Made by a program: the position numbers and the translations under genes
Assembly (NCBI GenBank): GCA_021775595.1
Contig: JAJFHN010000072.1
Coordinates: 1 to 64,000 of the forward strand
Direction of reading: 5' to 3'
Length of the DNA: 64,000 nucleotides
Source: Hyphomicrobiales bacterium
GTDB lineage: Bacteria > Pseudomonadota > Alphaproteobacteria > Rhizobiales > Methyloligellaceae
Notes under the pieces: model-generated
The model's input: only the letters and a program-made list of their open reading frames with translations
Told to the model about the DNA's origin: nothing
Database searches by the model: none
In this document: positions 3 to 11,288 of the stretch, piece by piece
Position numbering within the stretch: the stretch's first letter is position 1
Layout of the letters: every line of letters begins with the position of its first letter

Positions 3-695
3 ATCACGGCCGCCCTGTTCATCGTGGCGTCGATCGCGTTTTACCGGATTTGGTTTAACGTCTACGGGCTGACGGCTGGCCTCGACGCCACGTCAGTCGA
101 ATACAATACCTATTGGTGGAACCTGTTGATCATCCAGATGCCGGTGATTTTCGCGGCGAACTTCGCCTGCTGGTTCTATCTGATCGCCACCCGCGTGCGC
201 GATATGGCGTCGATGCCGCCGGCGGTTGAGCTGAAGAACCTGTTCTATATGGCTCTGTGGCTCTTCGCATACACGCTTGCCGTGGCGCCTGTTGGCGTTT
301 TCACCGAGACTGACGCCGCCTGGCATCAGACGGTGATGCGCGATTCCGCATTTGGACCGACCCACATCATTCTGTTCTACGGAATGATCCCGATCTATCT
401 GTTCTTCGGCATCGGCAGCTTCATCTACGCCATGACCCGTGTGCCGATCTTCGCACGCGGCATTTCGTTCATGCATGTTCTGGCCGTGGTCGGACCGTTC
501 CTCATTCTCGTCAACGTTGGCTTCAACGAGTGGGGCCATGCCTTCTGGCTGACGGAAGAGATCTTCTCGCATCCGCTCCATTGGGGCTTTGTTGTCCTGG
601 GCGTTACGGCGTTCGCGCTTGCCGGCGTCGCAGCTCAGATGACGATGCGCTTTGCTGAGCTCTTCCCGGTCGTCTTCAAAAACGAAGACGCGTAG
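3..695 (+). CDS. pmoC: Copper membrane monooxygenase subunit C (PmoC/AmoC family), 5' end outside window
   Basis: This is the membrane subunit that carries the likely catalytic copper sites of particulate methane/ammonia/hydrocarbon monooxygenases. About 230 residues are visible. The reading frame is open to the window edge, so the N-terminus is missing and the GTG at 24 is not the start. Several hydrophobic helices are visible. The CuC ligand pattern D-x3-H-x12-H is present (codons at 312, 324 and 363). The second conserved set, N-x3-H-x13-H, is also present (codons at 525, 537 and 579), matching the CuD ligands known from PmoC structures. An active enzyme is therefore plausible. It is the first visible gene of a C-A-B cluster, the order of pmo, amo and hmo operons. 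The sequence does not settle the substrate. Confidence 0.95.
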   Translation: MTAALFIVASIAFYRIWFNVYGLTAGLDATSVEYNTYWWNLLIIQMPVIFAANFACWFYLIATRVRDMASMPPAVELKNLFYMALWLFAYTLAVAPVGVFTETDAAWHQTVMRDSAFGPTHIILFYGMIPIYLFFGIGSFIYAMTRVPIFARGISFMHVLAVVGPFLILVNVGFNEWGHAFWLTEEIFSHPLHWGFVVLGVTAFALAGVAAQMTMRFAELFPVVFKNEDA

Positions 696-713
696 AGCTG
701 ATAATGATTGCGC

Positions 714-749
714 GGCGGCCTGGATTTTGTGATCTGGGCCGCCGTTTTT
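714..749 (+). terminator. Intrinsic terminator between pmoC and pmoA
   Basis: The inverted repeat GGCGGCC (714-720) / GGCCGCC (737-743) forms a 7-bp GC stem and is followed by a run of five T (745-749). It lies 19 bp after the pmoC stop and about 165 bp before pmoA. It could make pmoC more abundant than pmoAB, or separate the two transcription units. Confidence 0.75.
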
Positions 750-801
750 GCGACTGCATCTGTCGGCTGGCTGGCTCTGGACTAGTGCGTGCGGAGTTGG
801 A

Positions 802-829
802 TTGGCGGATGGTCGAACTTTAGTATAAT
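802..829 (+). promoter_or_regulatory. Candidate sigma-70 promoter for pmoAB
   Basis: TTGGCG (802-807) and a perfect TATAAT (824-829) are 16 bp apart, downstream of the pmoC terminator and 84 bp before the pmoA start. The pmoA start at 914 has a clear ribosome-binding site, GGAGGGG at 900-906. Read from sequence only; the -35 match is partial. Confidence 0.5.
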
Positions 830-913
830 CTGGGTAACGGAAACGTTCAGCAACAGGTCAGGTGTTCATGGCAGGCAACAGCCGCAGACCATGAGGGCTG
901 GAGGGGTTGAGAA

Positions 914-1699
914 ATGTTCAATAACAAGGAAGTTCTCGAATACGCGGGCTTTGGCAAGATGGCCAGTCGCTACTCCATGTATTGGGATCTTATCGTCGTC
1001 ACTGCGATCATTCTGCTTTTTGGCAGCGTGATCCCCCTGTCGGTTATGCTGATGGTCGGTGATTGGGACTTCTTCATTGATTGGCGCGACCGCCAGTTCT
1101 GGCCGCTCGTGTTCCCGATCGTCACTATTTGGTACAGCGCGGCGCTTGCCGGCATTTTTTGGGAGAATTTCCGTTTGCCAATTGGCGCTACAGTTGGCGC
1201 CGTTCTGCTGTTGCTGCCGGTCTGGCTCTCGCGCTGGGGAACATGGCATCTATTCAATAACTACCCCATGAGCATGGTCACGCCGACGCAAGTCATTTCT
1301 GGTGCGCTGATCCTGGATGGCTGCATGCTGGTATTCCGGCATTACGTGTTCACCGCCATCGTTGGCGGCTTCCTGTACGGATTTACCTTCTACTTCGCTA
1401 ATTTCGGACCGATGGCCGGTTTTTTCCAGCCCGTCGAACACCAGGGCGCCATCGCCCCGGTTGCCGATATGGTCGGTTACGCATTCCCGCGTTCGGCGAC
1501 GCCTGAATACATCCGTATCGTGGAACGAAGCACGTTGCGCACATTCGGAGACACGACTGTCTTCTACACCGCCTCGTTCGCCGGTTATGTCTGCGTTCTC
1601 ATGTATTTGATCTGGTGGAAAATCGGAAACTGGTTTGCCCAGGCAACGTTCTTCCCCAACGCAAGCTGGATCAAGTCTTCCGTGGGACTCAAAGATTAG
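914..1699 (+). CDS. pmoA: Copper membrane monooxygenase subunit A (divergent PmoA/AmoA family)
   Basis: This is the membrane-embedded subunit A of a CuMMO, 261 residues, slightly longer than typical PmoA (about 247-252). Family landmarks are present: WRDRQFWP, the ENFRLP segment, and PEYIRIVERSTLRTFG near the C-terminus, where canonical PmoA reads PEYIRMVERGTLRTFG. There are six to seven hydrophobic segments. Between the landmarks it differs clearly from the methanotroph PmoA I remember, so it is probably one of the non-canonical CuMMO groups (hydrocarbon-type or uncultured-cluster). The gene follows a terminator and a promoter candidate, and pmoB starts 41 bp downstream, so the two are probably co-transcribed. 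Identity as a PmoA family member is firm. The substrate (methane, ammonia or short alkane) cannot be read from the sequence alone. Confidence 0.95.
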   Translation: MFNNKEVLEYAGFGKMASRYSMYWDLIVVTAIILLFGSVIPLSVMLMVGDWDFFIDWRDRQFWPLVFPIVTIWYSAALAGIFWENFRLPIGATVGAVLLLLPVWLSRWGTWHLFNNYPMSMVTPTQVISGALILDGCMLVFRHYVFTAIVGGFLYGFTFYFANFGPMAGFFQPVEHQGAIAPVADMVGYAFPRSATPEYIRIVERSTLRTFGDTTVFYTASFAGYVCVLMYLIWWKIGNWFAQATFFPNASWIKSSVGLKD

Positions 1700-1740
1700 T
1701 CGTCCTGATTTAGTGACTTTGTTTTAGTGGAGAGGCAGAA

Positions 1741-3054
1741 ATGACCGGTTTCCGCAAACTAACCGTGCTGGGGCTCGCCGTGCTGGCGGGATTCCTGGCG
1801 ATTACCATCGATACCAAGCCAGCGCTTTCCCATGGTGAGCGCACCCAAGAGCCCTTCTTCCGCATGCGCTCCATGCAGTGGTACGACGTCACCTGGTCGA
1901 AGACCTCGGTCGGCGTCAACGAAGAATGGGAGATGACGGCCAAAGTCTATTTGATGAAGGATTGGCCGGAAACGATCAACAAGCCGGATTTGGTCTATGT
2001 GTCATTGTTGGCGCCAGGGCCGGTCTTTGCGCGAACCGAGAGTTCGCTCAACGGCATCCCGGCCCGCCAGTCCTTCAGGGACCTGAAGCTCGGCACAGTT
2101 TATGACTACCAGATGAAACTGGTTGGCCGAGTTCCTGGCCGTTGGCACGTTCATCCCGAAATTGCCGTTGCCGGCTCGGGACCGTTGGTTGGGCCAGGCG
2201 AATGGGTCGAGGTAACGGGCTCGGCAAGCGATTTCGCGTTTCCGATTGAAACCATGACCGGTGAAAAAATCGCGAATTTGGAGACCTACGGCGTTCTCAA
2301 CATCGGTATGTGGCACCTCATCTGGCTTGCCATCGCGGCCGGTTGGTTGCTCTTTTGGCTGTTGCGGCCGCTCTTGATCCCTCGCTTTCTTGCTCTGCAA
2401 GGAGGCCGCGAGGATCTGCTCGTCAGGCGTACTGACGTGGTTGCTGGCGCGATGCTCGTGGTTGTGTCGCTCACATTGATCTTCACCTCCTATTATCTGG
2501 GCGTCTCGAAGTATCCCAACAGGGTTCCGTTGCAGATCACGGTCAACGAGATCGAAAAAGACATCGAACAGCCGCCAGATGACCTCGACATCACCATGAA
2601 GCGGACGACGTATGACGTGCCGGGCCGTGCATTGCGCATGATTTTTGAGGCAACCAATACCGGTAGCTCACCGCTTACGCTCGGTGAATTCTCAACGTCA
2701 TCACTTCGATTTGTCGATAAGAAGGTGCCGCAGGCCATGGCCCGTGTTGCTCCCGATTATCCCAGGGAATGGGTACCGGAAGGCGGGTTGCAGGTCAGCA
2801 ACAATGCGCCGCTGCAGCCGGGTGAGACGCGCACTTACACCGTCGAGGCCATTGACGTGGCCTGGGAGCTTGAGCGTCTGACGAGCTTCTTGACGGACGT
2901 GGACGCGCGCTTCGGCGGTCTGCTGTTCTTCTACGAACCCGATGGTAGGCGGCACCTGACGGAAATTTCGGGACCGATACTTCCGGTCTTCACTGCAGGT
3001 GACATGGTCTCCCAAAATGAAACAGGTGCGCAGGTCGCAGCTGTCAGTCAATAA
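1741..3054 (+). CDS. pmoB: Copper membrane monooxygenase subunit B (PmoB/AmoB family)
   Basis: This subunit has two periplasmic cupredoxin domains joined by two transmembrane helices. A signal peptide (residues 1-30) should be cleaved before His31, giving the mature start HGERTQ; in Methylococcus PmoB the mature protein also begins at a copper-binding His. The other CuB ligands are His136 and His138 in the motif GRWHVHP. Helices lie near residues 185-215 and 235-260, and the second cupredoxin domain follows. The Methylococcus monocopper-site His48 is Gln47 here (MQWYD), so that site should be absent, as in many other CuMMOs. Ribosome-binding site GGAGAGG is just upstream. A paralogue without the helices is encoded at 5734. 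Confidence 0.95.
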   Translation: MTGFRKLTVLGLAVLAGFLAITIDTKPALSHGERTQEPFFRMRSMQWYDVTWSKTSVGVNEEWEMTAKVYLMKDWPETINKPDLVYVSLLAPGPVFARTESSLNGIPARQSFRDLKLGTVYDYQMKLVGRVPGRWHVHPEIAVAGSGPLVGPGEWVEVTGSASDFAFPIETMTGEKIANLETYGVLNIGMWHLIWLAIAAGWLLFWLLRPLLIPRFLALQGGREDLLVRRTDVVAGAMLVVVSLTLIFTSYYLGVSKYPNRVPLQITVNEIEKDIEQPPDDLDITMKRTTYDVPGRALRMIFEATNTGSSPLTLGEFSTSSLRFVDKKVPQAMARVAPDYPREWVPEGGLQVSNNAPLQPGETRTYTVEAIDVAWELERLTSFLTDVDARFGGLLFFYEPDGRRHLTEISGPILPVFTAGDMVSQNETGAQVAAVSQ

Positions 3055-3127
3055 CGAGCAAGTCTTCTCGGCTCCGCGGTGTGCGTCACCGTGGAGCCGT
3101 GAAGACGCCAAGATGGAGTGGGCTCGC

Positions 3128-3733
3128 ATGGGTGCGAGATCGCTGTTCAGCAAGAGTCTGATTTGGGCCATTCCATTGGCCCTTCTTACATTTGCGCCGA
3201 CACCGGCGTTTCCCCATGGCAGCCTGTCCATGGATGATGATATCTGCGTACTTAAAGTCGGTAGATACGTCGTCCATTTCGCCGGCTACCAACCGCTCGA
3301 CAAGAAAGACATGTCGCGGCTCACAGAATTTTGTGAAGATATCCCAGCCGTCGGCAAAACATTTGTTGTGCTGGATCTTGTTGATCCCGAATTACGCAAA
3401 ATGCCGATTGCAGTTCGCGTGGTGCAAGACCTGGGACCGACCAACGAAGAAGCCGGTCCAGTCGTGTTTGAGATGCCCAAGGAGAGCCATCCCACCGGGA
3501 CGTTCTCTTACAACTATACCTTCGATAAGCCCGGCAAATTTGTCGGTGTCATCACCGCCGGCGCCGACACTGACGAAATCACTGCACGATTCCCATTTTC
3601 AGTGGGTCAGCCGAAGAACAACTCTTGGTCATTGGCCTTGTATATAGCCGCGGCAATCGCCGCCGCCATTGGGCTGATCATGGTTGCGCTGAGTTCACAC
3701 AACAAGGTTCTCGATAAGTCCGGACTGCAGTAG
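3128..3733 (+). CDS. Secreted, C-terminally anchored protein with a predicted N-terminal His (fourth gene of the pmo cluster)
   Basis: I do not have a firm family name for this protein. The chosen ATG has GGAGTGG 6 bp upstream; an in-frame ATG at 3113 is possible. Residues 1-29 form a signal peptide ending AFP, so the mature protein may begin at His30-Gly31, like the two PmoB proteins here. The body contains DDICVLKVG, HFAGYQP and EFCEDIP, so two cysteines could form a disulfide. One transmembrane helix (about residues 170-192) and a short tail follow. I recall similar sequences with the HG...D-C-x-(I/L)-K-x-G...HF...YQP pattern as uncharacterised secreted proteins. It is not a canonical PmoD, because the CuA-like motif is absent. 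It starts 74 bp after pmoB on the same strand. A copper-delivery or assembly role is an inference. Confidence 0.8.
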   Translation: MGARSLFSKSLIWAIPLALLTFAPTPAFPHGSLSMDDDICVLKVGRYVVHFAGYQPLDKKDMSRLTEFCEDIPAVGKTFVVLDLVDPELRKMPIAVRVVQDLGPTNEEAGPVVFEMPKESHPTGTFSYNYTFDKPGKFVGVITAGADTDEITARFPFSVGQPKNNSWSLALYIAAAIAAAIGLIMVALSSHNKVLDKSGLQ

Positions 3734-3783: not shown

Positions 3784-4209
3784 TTAGGGCGCGCTCGCGA
3801 AATGCTGCGTGATCCCCTCAAAGCCAGCTTTGAAAAGACGCGATACGGCGTCCGCGACGACAAACTTGGGCACACCCTTGGGCTCGAACGTGCCCGTCCA
3901 ACTGATGATACTGCCATCGCCCTCCTGGCTGACGCTGAGCGTGGCGTGGTAGTCGCTCAAGGGCAGGGGGCCGAAGTCGGTCATCGTGTAGCTGTAGCTT
4001 CTGTCGCTGTTTGAATGGGCGTCCATCGATTCGACAATGGTTTCACCATTGCCGAGGGTGAGGCGGCGATATGTGACGCCGTCCTCACTGAAGGTCTCCG
4101 TCGCCGATATGGCTGGGTGCCAGGTGTGCAGGGCGTCGAAGTCGCCGACGAAAGCCCAGACCTCTTCGCATGGTGCAGCGATCTGCAGGGACTCGGTCAC
4201 GACAGCCAT
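3784..4209 (-). CDS. SRPBCC (START/Bet v1-like) family protein
   Basis: This 141-residue protein has the pattern of the polyketide-cyclase/SRPBCC fold: an N-terminal strand, then VWAFVGDFDALHTWHPAI, a central antiparallel sheet (YSYTMTDFGPLPLSDY) and a long C-terminal helix (VSRLFKAGFEGITQHF). There is no signal peptide. Such proteins bind hydrophobic ligands, but the substrate cannot be inferred. It lies 48 bp downstream of the thiolase gene on the same strand, so the two are probably co-transcribed. It converges with the pmo cluster. Confidence 0.8.
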   Translation of the reverse strand: MAVVTESLQIAAPCEEVWAFVGDFDALHTWHPAISATETFSEDGVTYRRLTLGNGETIVESMDAHSNSDRSYSYTMTDFGPLPLSDYHATLSVSQEGDGSIISWTGTFEPKGVPKFVVADAVSRLFKAGFEGITQHFASAP

Positions 4210-4257: not shown

Positions 4258-5457
4258 TTAGTGGAGGCGGGTCACGCCAACCGCCGTTGCTTCTCCGCCG
4301 CCGATGCACAAAGAGGCAACGCCTCGATCGACATCGTTGCGGGCCAATGCGCCAAGCAGCGTAACAATGATCCGTGTGCCCGAAGCGCCGACCGGATGGC
4401 CAAGCGCACAAGCGCCACCATGCACATTGACGATGTCGTGAGAGAGCCCCAAATCGCGAATGGCGGCCATGGCGACTACGGCAAATGCCTCGTTGACTTC
4501 AAACAGATCGACATCACCCGCGCTCCAACCAAGTTGCTCGAACAACCGTTCAATTGCCGAGATCGGCGCCGTTGTGAACCACGCCGGCGCCTGCGCAAAA
4601 CTGGCGCAGCCCTCGATTTTGGCCAACGGCGTAATGCCTTTCGCTTCGGCCGTTTTTTCGCGCATCAGCACCAGGGCCGCGGCGCCATCTGAAATCGAAC
4701 TCGAATTGGCTGGCGTCACCGTGCCGTCCTTGCGGAAGGCCGGCTTGAGCAGCGGAATTTTCTCCGGATCGGCCATATAAGGTTGCTGGTCGCGCTCGAC
4801 CGTGTGTTCGCCCTTTCGTGTCTTGACCGTAACCGGCGTGATTTCCGGGGCAAACGTTCCGTCCTCATTTGCCTCCTTGGCGCGCTTCAGAGATTCGATT
4901 GCATAATCGTCCTGATCCTTGCGCGTGAATTGATAGTGTTGCGCCGTGTCCTCGGCATAAGTTCCCATCAGGCGGCCCTTATCGAAGGCGTCTTCCAAGC
5001 CATCAAGAAACATGTGGTCCTGGACCTCGCCGTGTCCGAGCCGGAGCCCTTGGCGCCCTTTTGGCAGCAGATAAGGCGCATTGGTCATGCTTTCCAAACC
5101 ACCGGCAACAATGATGTCGTCAGGTCTCGCATGCAGCGCGTCATAAGCCATCATCACGGTCTTCATGCCCGAGCCGCACATTTTGTTGACTGTCGAGCAC
5201 GGCACGGAATCGGGCAAGCCGGCGCCGATTGCCGCTTGGCGGGCGGGTGCTTGGCCTTGTCCGGCCATAAGAACGCAGCCCATCAGAACTTCATTGATCG
5301 TATCGGGCGCCAAATTGGCGCGCTCGACTGCTGCCGCGATGGCTGCACTGCCGAGATCGACTGCCGGAACTTGCGAAAAGTCGCCTTGAAAACCGCCGAT
5401 CGGGGTGCGCGCGCCAGAGGCGATCACCACGGCGCCATGGGAATCTGTTTTGCTCAT
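4258..5457 (-). CDS. Acetyl-CoA acetyltransferase / 3-ketoacyl-CoA thiolase
   Basis: This is a thiolase of 399 residues, normal for the family. It cleaves 3-ketoacyl-CoA, or condenses two acetyl-CoA, in the cytoplasm. The nucleophilic Cys94 is in NKMCGSGMK, the catalytic His is in GGACALGHPVG (about residue 350), and the second Cys is in SLCIGGGEA near the C-terminus. The gene leads a minus-strand pair with the SRPBCC gene and diverges from the pmoB-like gene at 5734 across a 276-bp gap that holds a LiuR-like box. With the acyl-CoA synthetase and enoyl-CoA hydratase nearby it supplies three of the activities needed to degrade an acid through acyl-CoA; no 3-hydroxyacyl-CoA or acyl-CoA dehydrogenase is in view. 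Biosynthetic versus degradative use is undecided. Confidence 0.93.
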   Translation of the reverse strand: MSKTDSHGAVVIASGARTPIGGFQGDFSQVPAVDLGSAAIAAAVERANLAPDTINEVLMGCVLMAGQGQAPARQAAIGAGLPDSVPCSTVNKMCGSGMKTVMMAYDALHARPDDIIVAGGLESMTNAPYLLPKGRQGLRLGHGEVQDHMFLDGLEDAFDKGRLMGTYAEDTAQHYQFTRKDQDDYAIESLKRAKEANEDGTFAPEITPVTVKTRKGEHTVERDQQPYMADPEKIPLLKPAFRKDGTVTPANSSSISDGAAALVLMREKTAEAKGITPLAKIEGCASFAQAPAWFTTAPISAIERLFEQLGWSAGDVDLFEVNEAFAVVAMAAIRDLGLSHDIVNVHGGACALGHPVGASGTRIIVTLLGALARNDVDRGVASLCIGGGEATAVGVTRLH

Positions 5458-5600: not shown

Positions 5601-5733
5601 ATTATGGCGGGTGTCCATATCTGGAGCGATCCGCTGGATCAACTGAACCGATTGACCATTGGCAAATCCGAGCCAGAGCCGACCCGCGGCGTTGCCCGAA
5701 ATGACTGGTTAGGTCAGACACAAGGAGCAAGAG

Positions 5734-6732
5734 GTGTCTCTGGAACTGGATAGCTGTTCCGCCCGGGCGGGAATAATCGCACTCGCGCTCATGCTGTTGG
5801 TGCCGATCTCCGAGGTTGTGGCGCACGGGGAAAAATTTCAGCAAGCTGATCTGCGCGTACGCTCGATCCAGTGGTACGACACGGAGATCAGCCGTTCGAG
5901 CGCCGAGATCAATGATGCCGTCACATTGAAAGGCAAATTCTACGTTTCGACCAACTGGCCGGACGCATTGTCGAAGTCGCCGCGCGTCTTTTTGCATACT
6001 GGCGCTACCGAGCCGGCGTTGTTGCGGTTGGGCACCAAAATAAACGGCCTACGGCAGGTCGCGCCGGTGAGCCTAGAGCTTGGCGGACACTACGAATATG
6101 AAATGGCATTGAAGGCGCGTGTTCCGGGTCGATCACACATCCACCCAGTACTGCATATCGACGATGCCGGTCCCCTGATCGGTCCAGGTAAATGGATCGA
6201 GGTCGGAGGGAATGCAGCTGACTTCAACTATATCGCCCAAGCATCGAGCACCGCAGGGTTCGTTGTACCGAGCATAAATCCAGCACAGCCGGAGGGTGTC
6301 GTCATAGCCCCGCTTGCCAAGCCGCGCCGAACGGTCGATGCGAAGGTCGAACAGGCAGCCTATGTCACTCCGGCTCGCAGCCTCCGAATGCAGATCAAAG
6401 TCACGAACAACACTAATATGCCGCTGCGTCTTGGCGAAGTCAGCAGCTCTTATGCGAGGTTCATCAATCCGGATGTTTTGGCTAACATTATGCGTGACGA
6501 TCCCGACGAAGCAATTGCGCGCAGCGGATTGATCGTCGAAGGCGGAGAAATCGCGCCAGGAGAGAACAGGACGCTGTATGTGAGGGCCGAAGATCTCATT
6601 TGGGAGGCTGAACGTCTGTCAAAGTTTGGCGAAGACGGCGATGGCCAGTTCGCCGCCCTGATGCATTTTTACGGACCGACCGGTGTTAGGGTGCTGAGCG
6701 AGATCACAGGAACACTGCAGCCAGCCGATTGA
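5734..6732 (+). CDS. Soluble PmoB-like periplasmic dicupredoxin lacking the membrane helices
   Basis: This 332-residue PmoB paralogue starts at GTG with AAGGAG upstream. The signal peptide ends at Ala30, so the mature protein begins His31-Gly-Glu-Lys, as in PmoB. RVRSIQWYD matches RMRSMQWYD of PmoB. GRSHIHP supplies His135 and His137, so all three CuB ligands are kept. GPLIGPGKWIEVGGNAADF closes domain 1. Where PmoB has two helices, this protein has only a hydrophilic Pro-rich linker of about 40 residues (about 188-230). A second cupredoxin domain follows (PARSLRMQIKVTNNT...LRLGEVSSS...HFYGP). The layout resembles the engineered soluble spmoB fragment of Methylococcus PmoB, but occurs here as a natural gene. 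It leads a plus-strand set with the acyl-CoA synthetase (49 bp downstream), enoyl-CoA hydratase and MerR genes. Copper storage, delivery or oxidation are all possible roles. Confidence 0.92.
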   Translation: MSLELDSCSARAGIIALALMLLVPISEVVAHGEKFQQADLRVRSIQWYDTEISRSSAEINDAVTLKGKFYVSTNWPDALSKSPRVFLHTGATEPALLRLGTKINGLRQVAPVSLELGGHYEYEMALKARVPGRSHIHPVLHIDDAGPLIGPGKWIEVGGNAADFNYIAQASSTAGFVVPSINPAQPEGVVIAPLAKPRRTVDAKVEQAAYVTPARSLRMQIKVTNNTNMPLRLGEVSSSYARFINPDVLANIMRDDPDEAIARSGLIVEGGEIAPGENRTLYVRAEDLIWEAERLSKFGEDGDGQFAALMHFYGPTGVRVLSEITGTLQPAD

Positions 6733-6780: not shown

Positions 6781-8361
6781 ATGCGCGTTCCATTGTTGTT
6801 GGATGATTTTCTGAAGCGTGCTTCGTCGCTCTATGGCGGAAAAACAGCAATCGTTGATCGCGACAGACGCTTCACTTATCGCGAATTCCACAAGCGAACG
6901 AACCAGCTCTCCAATGCGCTTTGTTCGCTTGGGCTGCAGAAGGGCGACCGGGTTGCGATCTTGTCGCCCAACTCACATTTCTTCGTTGAAAGCCTTTTTG
7001 CGACCTCCCAAGTGGGGCTCATCCTGGTTCCAATAAATTTTCGCCTGACGGCGCAAGAAACGCTTTTCATCCTCCAGCATTCCGGCGCAAAGGCCATCAT
7101 TGCCGACTATGATTTTGTTGGGCTGGTTGACGAAATTCGCGGAGATGCTTCCGCTCTCGAGCACTTCATCGAAGCTCGCTACGATGATGCCCACACCGAG
7201 AATTGGATCAATCTTGATGGTTGGATCGAGACGCATCCCAGCGAGCTTCAGCACCAGATTGAGTGCGACGAAGACGATACCGTTTCAATAAATTACACAT
7301 CCGGCACAACGGCCATGCCGAAAGGTGTCGAGCTGACGCACCGGAATTTTTACATCAATGCCTACAACATGATCGTGCATCTCCAATTGGGTCATGACGA
7401 CGTCGAGTTGTGGACGCTGCCAATGTTCCACTGTAACGGCTGGGGCGCGATCTACGCTTTGGTCGGACTGGGCGCCACGCATGTGGTGTTGCGGCAGGTT
7501 GATGCCAAGGAGATCTTTGAACTGGTCGAACGGGAGGGCGTCACCTTCATGTGCATGGCGCCCATTGTCTTCCGCATGATCATGGGATTTACCGAACGGG
7601 ACCAATACAAGATCGAGCAAGAGGTTCGCATCGTTATGGGTGGCGCGCCGCCACCGGCCTCATTCATCCAAAGTCTTGAAACTGAGCTTGGCTGGAAGTT
7701 CGTTCAGATTTATGGCCTGACCGAGACCGCGCCGCTGCTCACCTATCATGTGCCCGATTTTCAAACAGCGGAGAGCGACTATCAGCGGCGCTCACGTGCC
7801 GGCATTCCGGGCCTTGGCGTTGAGCTGCAATTGCTCGATGACGACGGTCAGGTGGTGCCCAAGGACAACACCAGCGTTGGCGAGATCTGCGCCCGCGGCA
7901 ATATGGTCTTCAAGGGATATTGGCAGCAACCCGAACAGACCGCCGCCGCGATTTACGACGGTTTCTTTCATACCGGCGACCTTGCCGTTTGGGATGATGT
8001 TGGCAACATTCAGATCGTCGATCGAAAAAAGGATGTCATCATTTCGGGTGGCGAAAATATCTCGAGTGTCGATATCGAGGACGTGCTCTACAAACATCCG
8101 GCCGTTGCCGAGTGCGCGGTCATTGGCGTACCACACGAAAAATGGGGTGAAACGCCAAAGGCACTCGTTGTGTTGCATGACGGCGAAGCGGCCAATGAGC
8201 AGGAGCTGATAGCGTTTTGCAGAGATAATCTGGCGAAATTCAAGTGCCCGACGTCAGTGGAGCTCCTGACCGGTTTACCGAGGACGGCGACCGGGAAGTT
8301 GCAGAAATTCAAGCTGCGGGAAGAGTTTTGGCAAGGCCGGAAGCAAAAGGTCGCAAGCTGA
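6781..8361 (+). CDS. Acyl-CoA synthetase (AMP-forming, ANL superfamily)
   Basis: This 526-residue enzyme activates a carboxylic acid to its CoA thioester using ATP. The ATG at 6781 is chosen because AGTGGAG lies 7 bp upstream; an in-frame ATG at 6751 has no such site. The P-loop motif reads YTSGTTAMPKGV, with Ala where Gly is usual. Also visible are the A5-type IYGLTETAPLLTYH, the A7 HTGDLAVWD and the A8 DRKKDVIISGGENISS; the C-terminal catalytic Lys is in PRTATGKLQKF. The family covers short to long fatty acids, and chain length cannot be read from the sequence. Its place directly after the PmoB-like gene suggests it activates an acid formed by oxidation of the CuMMO product. Confidence 0.93.
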   Translation: MRVPLLLDDFLKRASSLYGGKTAIVDRDRRFTYREFHKRTNQLSNALCSLGLQKGDRVAILSPNSHFFVESLFATSQVGLILVPINFRLTAQETLFILQHSGAKAIIADYDFVGLVDEIRGDASALEHFIEARYDDAHTENWINLDGWIETHPSELQHQIECDEDDTVSINYTSGTTAMPKGVELTHRNFYINAYNMIVHLQLGHDDVELWTLPMFHCNGWGAIYALVGLGATHVVLRQVDAKEIFELVEREGVTFMCMAPIVFRMIMGFTERDQYKIEQEVRIVMGGAPPPASFIQSLETELGWKFVQIYGLTETAPLLTYHVPDFQTAESDYQRRSRAGIPGLGVELQLLDDDGQVVPKDNTSVGEICARGNMVFKGYWQQPEQTAAAIYDGFFHTGDLAVWDDVGNIQIVDRKKDVIISGGENISSVDIEDVLYKHPAVAECAVIGVPHEKWGETPKALVVLHDGEAANEQELIAFCRDNLAKFKCPTSVELLTGLPRTATGKLQKFKLREEFWQGRKQKVAS

Positions 8362-8430: not shown

Positions 8431-9246
8431 ATGAGCCAGGCGCAATCGAACCAAGAGTCAGGTCAGTCGGAAATCGTGCTCGAGCGCCGTGGCGCAGTTG
8501 CCATTATCGGATTCGAGCGGCAGGGCGGATACAACTCATTCGACAGCGCGACGCGTCTGGGACTGCTTGAGGCGCTGCTCGATGTTGAAAAGGACGACGC
8601 GATTCGAGCCGTCGTCATCCGCGGCAATGACAAGAGCTTCAATGTCGGCGCCGATCTCAATGAATTCATCCAAGACAATGTCGATGGCAGCGAAATCAAC
8701 CGGCAACTGGAAAACGAATATTTTCCGTCATATCAAGCAATCGGCAGAATGGGTAAGCCGGTCATCGCGGCCGTGTGCGGGCCAGCTGCCGGAATTGGCA
8801 TGTCGCTCGCTCTGCAATGCGACCTGATGGTGATGGCCGACAGCGCATACTTGCTCTCGCCATTTGCAAATCTCTCCTTGTGTCCCGACGGCGGCGCCAA
8901 CTGGCTTCTGCCCACGCGAATGGGCTATCGACGCGCATTCGAGGTGGCGATCGAGTGTCAGAAGCTCTCGGCTGAACGTTGCCTCGAGCTCGGCCTCGTC
9001 AATCGCGTCGTACCAAACGACGAAGTTGTGACAAATGCCATCGAATGGGCCGAGCAGCTTTCGACACGCGCACCGCTTGCCATACAAACGACAAAACGCG
9101 CCATGCGTTCGGCTTCATCCATGAGCTATGACGACATGTTTCACTTGGAAGCGGAGATCCAGAAGTCCAATGTTGACAGCAGCGACTTCAGAGAGGGCTT
9201 GGATGCCTTTCTCAATAAGCGTCAGCCCCAATTTGAGGGAAAATAA
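8431..9246 (+). CDS. Enoyl-CoA hydratase/isomerase (crotonase) family protein
   Basis: This 271-residue crotonase-fold enzyme probably hydrates or isomerises an enoyl-CoA. The ATG at 8431 is preceded by GGGAG. The first oxyanion-hole region is FNVGADLNEF (about residue 75), the second is CGPAAGIGMSLALQCDL (about 115-131), and LSPFANLSLCPDGGANWLLP follows. The catalytic-loop position that is Glu in classical hydratase-1 reads Asp in PDGG, closer to isomerase or CaiD-like members, so the exact reaction is open. It lies about 70 bp after the synthetase gene. Confidence 0.9.
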   Translation: MSQAQSNQESGQSEIVLERRGAVAIIGFERQGGYNSFDSATRLGLLEALLDVEKDDAIRAVVIRGNDKSFNVGADLNEFIQDNVDGSEINRQLENEYFPSYQAIGRMGKPVIAAVCGPAAGIGMSLALQCDLMVMADSAYLLSPFANLSLCPDGGANWLLPTRMGYRRAFEVAIECQKLSAERCLELGLVNRVVPNDEVVTNAIEWAEQLSTRAPLAIQTTKRAMRSASSMSYDDMFHLEAEIQKSNVDSSDFREGLDAFLNKRQPQFEGK

Positions 9247-9283: not shown

Positions 9284-9751
9284 GTGGCTGAAATATTCAA
9301 ATTGACGAGCAAGAAGACCTACACGATCGGCGAGCTGGCGCGCGATTTTGACGTCTCCTATCGGACCATTCGCTATTACGAGTCCATCGGATTGCTCTCG
9401 CCCAAGCGCCGTGGCCGCACGCGGATCTATGACGCCTATCAGCGGACCAAGTTGCGCCTGATCCTGAGGGGCAAGCGGATTGGTTTGAGCTTGCGCGAGT
9501 GCGAAAAGCTGCTGCATCTCTACGAGACCGACACAGGCGAGGAAGCTCAACTGCTCTATCTTGTATGGAAGATCGGAGAGCGCAAAACCGAACTCGAGGC
9601 CATGCGCAGGGATATCGACGCCAGTTACGCGGATCTCGATAAGGTCGAGCAGAACGCCAGGGAGCGCCTGAAGGAACTCGAATCTGACGAGACCGCGCAG
9701 ATTGAGCAGCGAGAAATGCCATCTCAAGAAGACGAAGCGCAAGCTGAGTGA
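9284..9751 (+). CDS. MerR-family transcriptional regulator (LiuR-like)
   Basis: This 155-residue regulator has the N-terminal MerR winged helix: YTIGELARDFDVSYRTIRYYESIGLLSPKRRGRTRIY, then a helix from about 55 and a long dimerisation coiled coil (about 90-140). The C-terminus is acidic and has no metal-binding cysteines, which speaks against metal or redox sensing and for the LiuR type that regulates acyl-CoA catabolism. It starts at GTG 38 bp after the enoyl-CoA hydratase and should be the last gene of the block. The candidate box at 5585 is its most likely target. Confidence 0.88.
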   Translation: MAEIFKLTSKKTYTIGELARDFDVSYRTIRYYESIGLLSPKRRGRTRIYDAYQRTKLRLILRGKRIGLSLRECEKLLHLYETDTGEEAQLLYLVWKIGERKTELEAMRRDIDASYADLDKVEQNARERLKELESDETAQIEQREMPSQEDEAQAE

Positions 9752-10079: not shown

Positions 10080-11288
10080 ATGACCGAACTCGTATTCAAT
10101 ACCGGCCGGCGAGCGATCGCATGGGCAGAGCTTAGGTTGCCCACAAATGCGTGGCGCTTGTTCCTGCTTTTGGTCATCGCGACGATCGCATCGGTTTCGC
10201 CTGAATTGCGGCAAATAGTGCTTTCGGCGATCGCCGATGCCTATCTGCAGGTCACGGTATTCGTGGCCGCGACGCTCGCCCTCGTCTACGTTTTTGAGAG
10301 CGCCTTCAGCTTCAATCTCGGCCGCACGATGGCCAGAGCCCGTTATTTTCAAGCCCCGATAGCTTCGTTCCTTGGTGCGTTGCCTGGATGCGGCGGCGCC
10401 ATCATCGTCGTGACGCAATATACCAAGGGTCTCGTATCGTTTGGCTCGGTGGTCGCGGTTCTGATCGCCACAATGGGTGATGCGGCTTTTTTGCTGATCG
10501 CGCGAGAGCCCACGACGGGCCTGGCCATGATGGCGGCTGGCTTCACCATCGGTACGGTCTCAGGCTGGCTGATTGACGCAATTCACGGCAGCGATTTCAT
10601 GCGCGCCGATGAGGGGTTGAGCCGACCTATTGGGCCAATGAAAAACGGCGTGTTGCCGCGCATCGAGCCAAGCGCGATTTGGCGATTGGCGAATTCCACT
10701 TGGATATATCTCGCCGCACCCGGCGTGGTTCTGGGCTTGTTGTTCGCCCTGCAGATCGACACCGATTATTTGTTCGGTCCGTTGTCGGCAATGGAGCCAA
10801 CGCTGTGGTTTGGCGCGTTGGCGGGCATCATGTGTTTGGTCATGTGGGCCTCGTCGAAGAGAGATAAAGAGGGTTATGTCGGACAGCACGATTACGACGC
10901 TTCTGCTCTGTCCATTTCTCAACGGGTCATCAAGGACACAAATTTTGTCACGACCTGGGTCGTGGTTGGCTTTTTGACTTATGAATTGGCTGTCCATGCC
11001 ACAGGTTCGGGAATTGAAAACTGGCTCCATGTGTGGGCGCCGCTTGTTCCGCTCGTCGCCATCCTTGTCGGTTTTATTCCTGGATGCGGACCACAGATTG
11101 TCATTACGACTTTGTATCTCTCAGGCGCCATTCCTCTTTCGGCGCAATTTGGCAACGCGATAGCCAATGACGGCGATGCGCTGTTCCCAGCCCTGGCGTT
11201 GGCCCCCAAAGCTGCGATCTTGGCGACGCTTTATTCGGCGATTCCCGCGCTCATCGTAGCGTACGGCTATTTTGTGCTATTTGAATAG
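10080..11288 (+). CDS. Putative 10-TM heavy-metal (manganese/arsenic-type) permease, ArsP_2-like
   Basis: This 402-residue polytopic inner-membrane protein has about ten hydrophobic segments. Two repeated signature loops are visible: LGALPGCGGAIIV (about residue 100) and FIPGCGPQIVI (about 333), with DGDALFP near the end. Paired PGCG motifs match the ArsP_2 group of putative 10-TM heavy-metal exporters, annotated in many genomes as putative manganese transporters. ATG at 10080 has a GAGG ribosome-binding site about 8 bp upstream. The substrate is unknown. Nearby metal-dependent genes (the CuMMO) make a metal role interesting, but the Fur-like sites point to iron or manganese rather than copper. 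Confidence 0.8.
   Translation: MTELVFNTGRRAIAWAELRLPTNAWRLFLLLVIATIASVSPELRQIVLSAIADAYLQVTVFVAATLALVYVFESAFSFNLGRTMARARYFQAPIASFLGALPGCGGAIIVVTQYTKGLVSFGSVVAVLIATMGDAAFLLIAREPTTGLAMMAAGFTIGTVSGWLIDAIHGSDFMRADEGLSRPIGPMKNGVLPRIEPSAIWRLANSTWIYLAAPGVVLGLLFALQIDTDYLFGPLSAMEPTLWFGALAGIMCLVMWASSKRDKEGYVGQHDYDASALSISQRVIKDTNFVTTWVVVGFLTYELAVHATGSGIENWLHVWAPLVPLVAILVGFIPGCGPQIVITTLYLSGAIPLSAQFGNAIANDGDALFPALALAPKAAILATLYSAIPALIVAYGYFVLFE

Follow-up and report, generated by a model that had tools for sequence, protein, structure and literature searches.

A predicted soluble PmoB paralogue retaining the CuB ligands in a Hyphomicrobiales genome

The gene at 5734–6732 and its product

The window analysed here is a 64,000-nucleotide stretch from a Hyphomicrobiales bacterium (assembly GCA_021775595.1, contig JAJFHN010000072.1, positions 1 to 64,000). 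On its plus strand, an open reading frame (ORF) of 332 codons, opened by GTG at 5734 and ending at 6732, encodes a paralogue of PmoB, the B subunit of copper membrane monooxygenases (CuMMOs), in which the two membrane helices of PmoB are missing; we refer to this paralogue as sPmoB. The gene and its parts are as follows:

5734..6732, plus strand: helix-free PmoB paralogue (sPmoB), GTG start, precursor of 332 residues, mature form of 302 residues, matching Pfam PF04744 in two stretches
5722..5727, plus strand: ribosome-binding site AAGGAG, 6 nt ahead of the GTG, read from the sequence
5734..5823, plus strand: predicted signal peptide, residues 1-30, with cleavage after ...SEVVA30 to expose an N-terminal His31 (hydropathy; residue 31 is His in 36/36 PmoB)
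5824..6225, plus strand: N-terminal cupredoxin domain with the CuB ligands His31 (5824-5826), His135 (6136-6138) and His137 (6142-6144)
6226..6324, plus strand: hydrophilic linker of 33 residues in place of the two-helix segment of PmoB (alignment; predicted local distance difference test score, pLDDT, below 60 across much of it)
6325..6729, plus strand: C-terminal cupredoxin domain (Pfam, alignment, structure overlay)

sPmoB matches the Pfam family Monooxygenase_B (PF04744) with 244 bits against a curated cut-off of 22.7 (two stretches, combined E 3e-72) and reaches 297 bits with the NCBIfam model AmoB_BACT, under the cut-off of 336 of that model. BLAST aligns it to the full-length PmoB of the same window (1741-3054) at 37% and 39% over the two cupredoxin domains and skips the middle. 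Removal of the signal peptide, RAGIIALALMLLVPISEVVA, would give a mature start of H31-G-E, like that of PmoB, and a protein of 32.9 kDa with an isoelectric point of 5.9 and no cysteines; these features point to export and N-terminal cleavage. GC content by codon position (0.62/0.45/0.64) is in line with that of the neighbouring genes, while a sigma-70 promoter scan upstream of the gene found none and is uninformative.

Between the two domains, the 33-residue linker NYIAQASSTAGFVVPSINPAQPEGVVIAPLAKP takes the place of a segment that spans 111-120 residues in each of the 36 full-length PmoB compared, and its maximum hydropathy is 0.94 versus 1.39-2.47 in those 36 proteins. The 19-residue hydropathy of sPmoB exceeds 1.2 in the signal peptide only, whereas the PmoB at 1741-3054 has a signal peptide and, around residues 190 and 233, two helices as well. 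None of the ten strongly conserved positions in the PmoB helix segment remains in sPmoB, and its linker, which is no simple deletion joint, resembles no PmoB segments joined end to end.

Copper site, predicted fold and descent

Across 40 aligned PmoB sequences, the columns of H31, H135 and H137 are all-His, the latter two lying in the GRSHIHP motif, and CuB of sPmoB thereby comprises a three-His ligand set that includes H31, an addition to the earlier sequence-only reading of this DNA. sPmoB retains all invariant columns of this alignment; among positions conserved in at least 85% of the sequences, it keeps 62, differs at 11 that are aligned or terminal, and has lost 10 with the deleted helix part. 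The departures include N88H, P92T, S111P, N166Y, S304G and the loss of the last Phe. sPmoB has His at residues 88, 141 and 311, positions at which Asn, Asn and Phe, respectively, predominate in other PmoB, and Ser134, just before the CuB ligand His135, takes the place of an aromatic residue or His; together with residue 119, these positions were flagged as divergent. The divergent His and Ser residues might possibly provide a second metal site or changed redox tuning, and the extra His at 88 and 141 together with Ser134 would be no less suited to binding than to redox chemistry.

sPmoB was modelled by AlphaFold2 with 40 sequences, an input alignment of full-length PmoB on which the model also leans. 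The precursor reached a pLDDT of 84 and a predicted template modelling score (pTM) of 0.80, the mature form a pLDDT of 86 (76 for the first ten residues) and a pTM of 0.84. Compared with the solved B chains of particulate methane monooxygenase (pMMO) and ammonia monooxygenase (AMO), the mature model gives Z scores of 34-36 for eight chains and 30.9 for the ninth (3chx), with a root-mean-square deviation of 2.1-2.6 Å over ~295 residues. The overlay begins at model residue 1 and the copper-binding His of the respective chain (29 in 3rfr/4phz, 33 in 1yew), and the precursor gives the same picture. The model thus places the two cupredoxin domains in the relative arrangement of PmoB. The predicted fold and, at the level of aligned residues, the CuB ligand set are conserved, and alignment and model suggest that sPmoB binds copper.

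The host genome (2.9 Mb, 103 contigs, 97.8% complete) encodes four full-length PmoB (contigs C75, C101, C57 and C73) in addition to sPmoB, as well as four PmoA. In a PmoB tree built on the two cupredoxin domains (268 columns), the sPmoB branch is 1.35 long, about four times the median of 0.31, and groups loosely (80/89) with CuMMO of Moraxellaceae/Gammaproteobacteria and of Alphaproteobacteria metagenome-assembled genomes rather than with any PmoB of its own genome, a placement made uncertain by the long branch. sPmoB nevertheless keeps 52/59 strongly conserved positions, on a par with the similarly divergent full-length paralogues C101 (50/58) and C73 (51/59). Because conserved residues are kept at the level of paralogues on such a long branch, continuing selection rather than decay is indicated, and the sequence evidence supports the view that sPmoB occurs naturally as a helix-free paralogue of PmoB, complete in its CuB ligands, and is not a decayed fragment. 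Its ancestor would have been a CuMMO B subunit from which a two-helix segment of ~80 residues was lost, while both cupredoxin domains and the three-His CuB were kept.

Three further possibilities were considered and set aside. A recent deletion in one of the host's own PmoB does not agree with the tree, which places sPmoB elsewhere, although its exact sister is unsure owing to the long branch. An orphan pmoA completed by sPmoB is ruled out by the four PmoA matched to four full-length PmoB. As to a signature of relaxed constraint or solubility, large hydrophobic residues are only slightly depleted in the domains and the grand average of hydropathy is ordinary, and we make no claim.

We searched for other soluble PmoB in about 1,980 genome slots (some genomes repeated; about 70 CuMMO-bearing), which spanned relatives, order, class, phylum, CuMMO-bearing lineages and the Methylocystis-type family, by a pattern scan that was not exhaustive, and by an alignment-based scan that covered 85,000 species with one genome each, considering the best 80 of 123 loci. 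No second helix-free PmoB was found in these slots or among these best 80 loci. The long helix segment is present in all 36 full-length PmoB of the careful alignment; of the other scan loci, some are truncated by contig ends and the rest have full-length frames of at least about 410-430 residues; and among the matches listed, intact whole-genome matches have ~300 nt between the two domains versus 39 nt in the sPmoB gene. Matches to a single domain, lying in short frames or at the ends of contigs (e.g. G1026:C282, G1660, G1543:C19), are in some cases ambiguous, and absence elsewhere is unproven. One candidate, L033, a single aligned segment (E 3e-56), turned out to be a normal PmoB of 413 residues. 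For an sPmoB orthologue, a single-protein scan of genome contigs gave no match, viral contigs yielded none, and plasmids carried ordinary AmoB only. In the open-access papers searched, which leave out most subscription journals, no natural PmoB that is soluble, truncated or paralogous was mentioned. sPmoB is thus apparently a singleton, a natural protein with both cupredoxin domains and CuB but no helices, of which we found no description in the open-access literature.

Altogether, Pfam, alignment, tree and model overlay agree with the claim of the sequence-only reading that 5734-6732, whose coordinates, start and length were all correct, encodes a CuMMO B-subunit paralogue that kept CuB and lost its membrane helices. 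The signal peptide, mature His31-Gly, GRSHIHP with His135/His137, two cupredoxin domains and hydrophilic linker that it described each held on re-checking; hydropathy finds no membrane segment past the signal peptide; and the structural overlay matches PmoB from the copper-binding N-terminal His on. In the genomes covered, searches for homologues and their neighbourhoods recovered PmoB homologues but neither a second soluble PmoB nor a syntenic gene set.

Gene neighbourhood and the other CuMMO loci of the host

The genes around sPmoB are the following:

24..3733, plus strand: neighbouring full CuMMO operon with pmoC (5' end cut at the contig start), pmoA, pmoB (1741-3054) and a pmoD-like gene (about 3101-3733)
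3784-4209, minus strand: gene for an SRPBCC-type protein, between pmoCABD and the sPmoB gene
4258..5457, minus strand: divergent thiolase (acetyl-CoA acetyltransferase type), upstream of the sPmoB gene
6781..8361, plus strand: acyl-CoA synthetase, the next gene, likely start ATG 6781, 48 nt after the sPmoB gene
8431..9246, plus strand: crotonase (enoyl-CoA hydratase/isomerase), likely start ATG 8431
9284..9751, plus strand: cysteine-free MerR-family regulator (ORF list, profile matches)
10080-11288: putative heavy-metal exporter of the ArsP_2 type with 10 transmembrane helices, just downstream of the MerR gene

The pmoCABD operon lies 2 kb from the sPmoB gene, and since two opposite-strand genes (3784-4209 and 4258-5457) intervene, the sPmoB gene would not be on the pmo transcript; the layout thus bears out the earlier view that it is transcribed apart from pmoCAB. 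That it leads a set with an acyl-CoA synthetase, a crotonase and a MerR regulator was likewise confirmed, and the spacing suggests that these four genes are co-transcribed. The operon partners of sPmoB are catabolic, and the set would fit the activation and beta-oxidation of a short acid derived from a hydrocarbon. The MerR protein has only weak matches to metal-sensor models and no cysteine, and the operon therefore gives no copper signal. Relatives offered no syntenic counterpart of the acyl-CoA synthetase/crotonase module, the best crotonase match among 40 related genomes being 41% identical.

The PmoD label on 3101-3733 follows the gene layout described previously (PMC6189053). Like L024:2847-3476 and L024:3570-4235, this gene follows a CuMMO operon and encodes a signal peptide, a mature HG, two Cys and a C-terminal helix; it has Val where the CuA motif Cx7MxH (PMC6189053) needs Met and may not form CuA. 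At L024:5150-6886, a membrane-anchored multicopper oxidase gene follows pmoAB and two PmoD-like genes, and this gene order recurs in other alpha- and gammaproteobacterial CuMMO loci, e.g. L027 and L036.

None of the 100 nearest relatives of the host carries any PmoB, which suggests that its CuMMO genes were acquired. On contig C57 (L026:31-14601), a second pmoCAB is flanked on one side by beta-oxidation genes and on the other by the complete box pathway for benzoyl-CoA, with BoxA, BoxB and BoxC equivalogs and a benzoate-type regulator; the PmoB it encodes shares 70% identity with the PmoB at 1741-3054 and is sister to it in the tree. It is uncommon for a CuMMO to lie among genes of aromatic degradation, and the setting may hint that its substrate is aromatic or cyclic. 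Outside the four operons, contigs C32, C64 and C38 (L151, L152, L153) carry further pmoC pieces at their ends, unaccompanied by pmoA or pmoB, and the copy on C32 lies near pqqB, pqqC and pqqE.

Possible roles and known systems

We tentatively propose, as a possible role that falls somewhat short of an even chance, that sPmoB is functional and secreted, a soluble accessory of the periplasm that binds Cu(II) and serves CuMMOs as either donor or buffer. In this model, Cu(II) would be held by an N-terminal histidine brace together with His135/His137, and sPmoB would pass copper to, or buffer copper for, the four CuMMOs of the cell; judging by gene spacing, it would be made jointly with CoA-dependent enzymes handling the products of hydrocarbon oxidation. 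Copper handling heads our ranking for three reasons: most stand-alone histidine-brace proteins of bacteria are copper carriers with ties to copper transport (PMC10952591), the retained part of PmoB is its copper part, and four CuMMOs in one cell need supply; by analogy, loading or storing copper is plausible. Weighing against this proposal, the operon neighbours are catabolic enzymes and not copper-homeostasis genes, the neighbouring MerR lacks metal-binding Cys, and sPmoB is known from one genome, with no orthologue found in which an association with copper genes could be checked. Of the sequence-only reading of a natural periplasmic copper protein, the natural, helix-free character and the intact CuB ligands stand, while the functions it proposed did not gain support.

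sPmoB could instead dock on the periplasmic face of PmoA/PmoC, replacing or competing with full PmoB under certain conditions or aiding trimer assembly. In favour of docking, its domains keep the PmoB arrangement and nearly all conserved PmoB positions, and archaeal AmoB, which lacks the C-terminal cupredoxin and at least one helix, shows that the bacterial B subunit is dispensable in part (PMC10030591). We regard docking as doubtful: with the 10/10 conserved helix-segment positions, the membrane contacts of PmoB are lost, large hydrophobic residues are slightly depleted in the domains, and the gene lies outside any pmoCA operon on a branch that differs from all four own PmoB. Moreover, the four PmoA are each provided with a full-length PmoB, so that sPmoB is not needed as a missing subunit, and the replacement of PmoB envisaged in the sequence-only reading is stoichiometrically superfluous. 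That reading also allowed for chemistry by sPmoB itself. A stand-alone periplasmic redox enzyme, in which the CuB brace activates O2 or peroxide in the manner of lytic polysaccharide monooxygenases (LPMOs) on a hydrocarbon, alcohol or other small substrate, would have products that feed the acyl-CoA synthetase/crotonase pathway of the catabolic set it heads, and the histidine brace is a known oxygenase centre in LPMOs (PMC10952591). The methane oxidation by the artificial fragment spmoB was, however, traced to duroquinol chemistry (PMC7994243), which weakens the catalytic reading, as does the view that CuB is not sufficient for methane oxidation (PMC6572826); Ser replaces the aromatic residue beside His135, and no partner reductase or substrate-binding domain is evident. 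A catalytic role is accordingly less likely (PMC6215863), and we give little credence to sPmoB as a secreted CuMMO-derived enzyme of hydrocarbon catabolism that uses histidine-brace copper without PmoA, PmoC or the membrane.

A relic without selected function, i.e. the PmoB of a lost CuMMO operon whose helix segment was deleted and whose frame stayed open by chance or for want of time, would account for the long branch and for the lack of an orthologue in the genomes searched. It is unlikely given the intact frame, ribosome-binding site, signal peptide and normal codon-position composition, a retention of conserved residues that equals that of functional paralogues despite the long branch, and a linker that is more than a simple deletion joint. 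That a misassembly removed the helix segment of an ordinary pmoB appears very improbable: the genome is fragmented (103 contigs), with the pmo region at the edge of a contig, but the sPmoB gene lies about 5.7 kb into a contig of 64 kb or more, in its own operon context with no adjoining pmoCA, and its frame is kept across a linker unlike PmoB segments joined end to end.

In PmoB, membrane anchoring of the complex is combined with binding of the CuB copper, the purpose of which is under dispute, and the two tasks have been hard to tell apart. If selection keeps CuB without the membrane part, then CuB would be valuable in itself, e.g. for copper handling, apart from catalysis at PmoC. Spectroscopy and metal-affinity work, for which membrane CuMMOs are difficult, might also benefit from sPmoB as a CuB protein that is soluble by nature and expressible.

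sPmoB shares with PmoB/AmoB (PF04744) the signal peptide, mature N-terminal His, CuB His triad and cupredoxin arrangement, but it has no transmembrane helices and no pmoCA operon, and it is an extra copy on a long branch beside four full-length PmoB. The recombinant Methylococcus PmoB fragment spmoB, the design of which we take to join the domains without the helices, is engineered, whereas sPmoB is natural, predicted to be secreted by a signal peptide, equipped with its own 33-residue linker and ~40% identical to known PmoB. As the sequence-only reading correctly noted, the two are similar in having two cupredoxin domains and CuB without helices (PMC7994243), and nature has apparently made the fragment that biochemists earlier cut out artificially. 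A natural partial loss that keeps CuB is also seen in archaeal AmoB of Nitrososphaerales and Ca. Angelarchaeales (PMC10030591, PMC9038741); there the C-terminal cupredoxin and at least one helix were lost (PMC10030591), whereas sPmoB keeps both cupredoxins and lost both helices. CopC and PmoF1 (PCuAC type) are likewise small secreted proteins with a mature N-terminal His as copper ligand (PMC10952591), a likeness that for sPmoB comes from its sequence, but they belong to different families with a different domain layout and no sequence relation. PmoD, one copy of which adjoins the sPmoB region (about 3101-3733), is a periplasmic copper protein tied to CuMMO, but it has a single cupredoxin domain, two Cys and a C-terminal helix (PMC6189053), and our searches found no homology to sPmoB. 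Finally, verrucomicrobial PmoB has lost the CuB ligands while the subunit is kept (PMC6572826, PMC6215863), and sPmoB is its reverse, with CuB kept and the membrane part lost.
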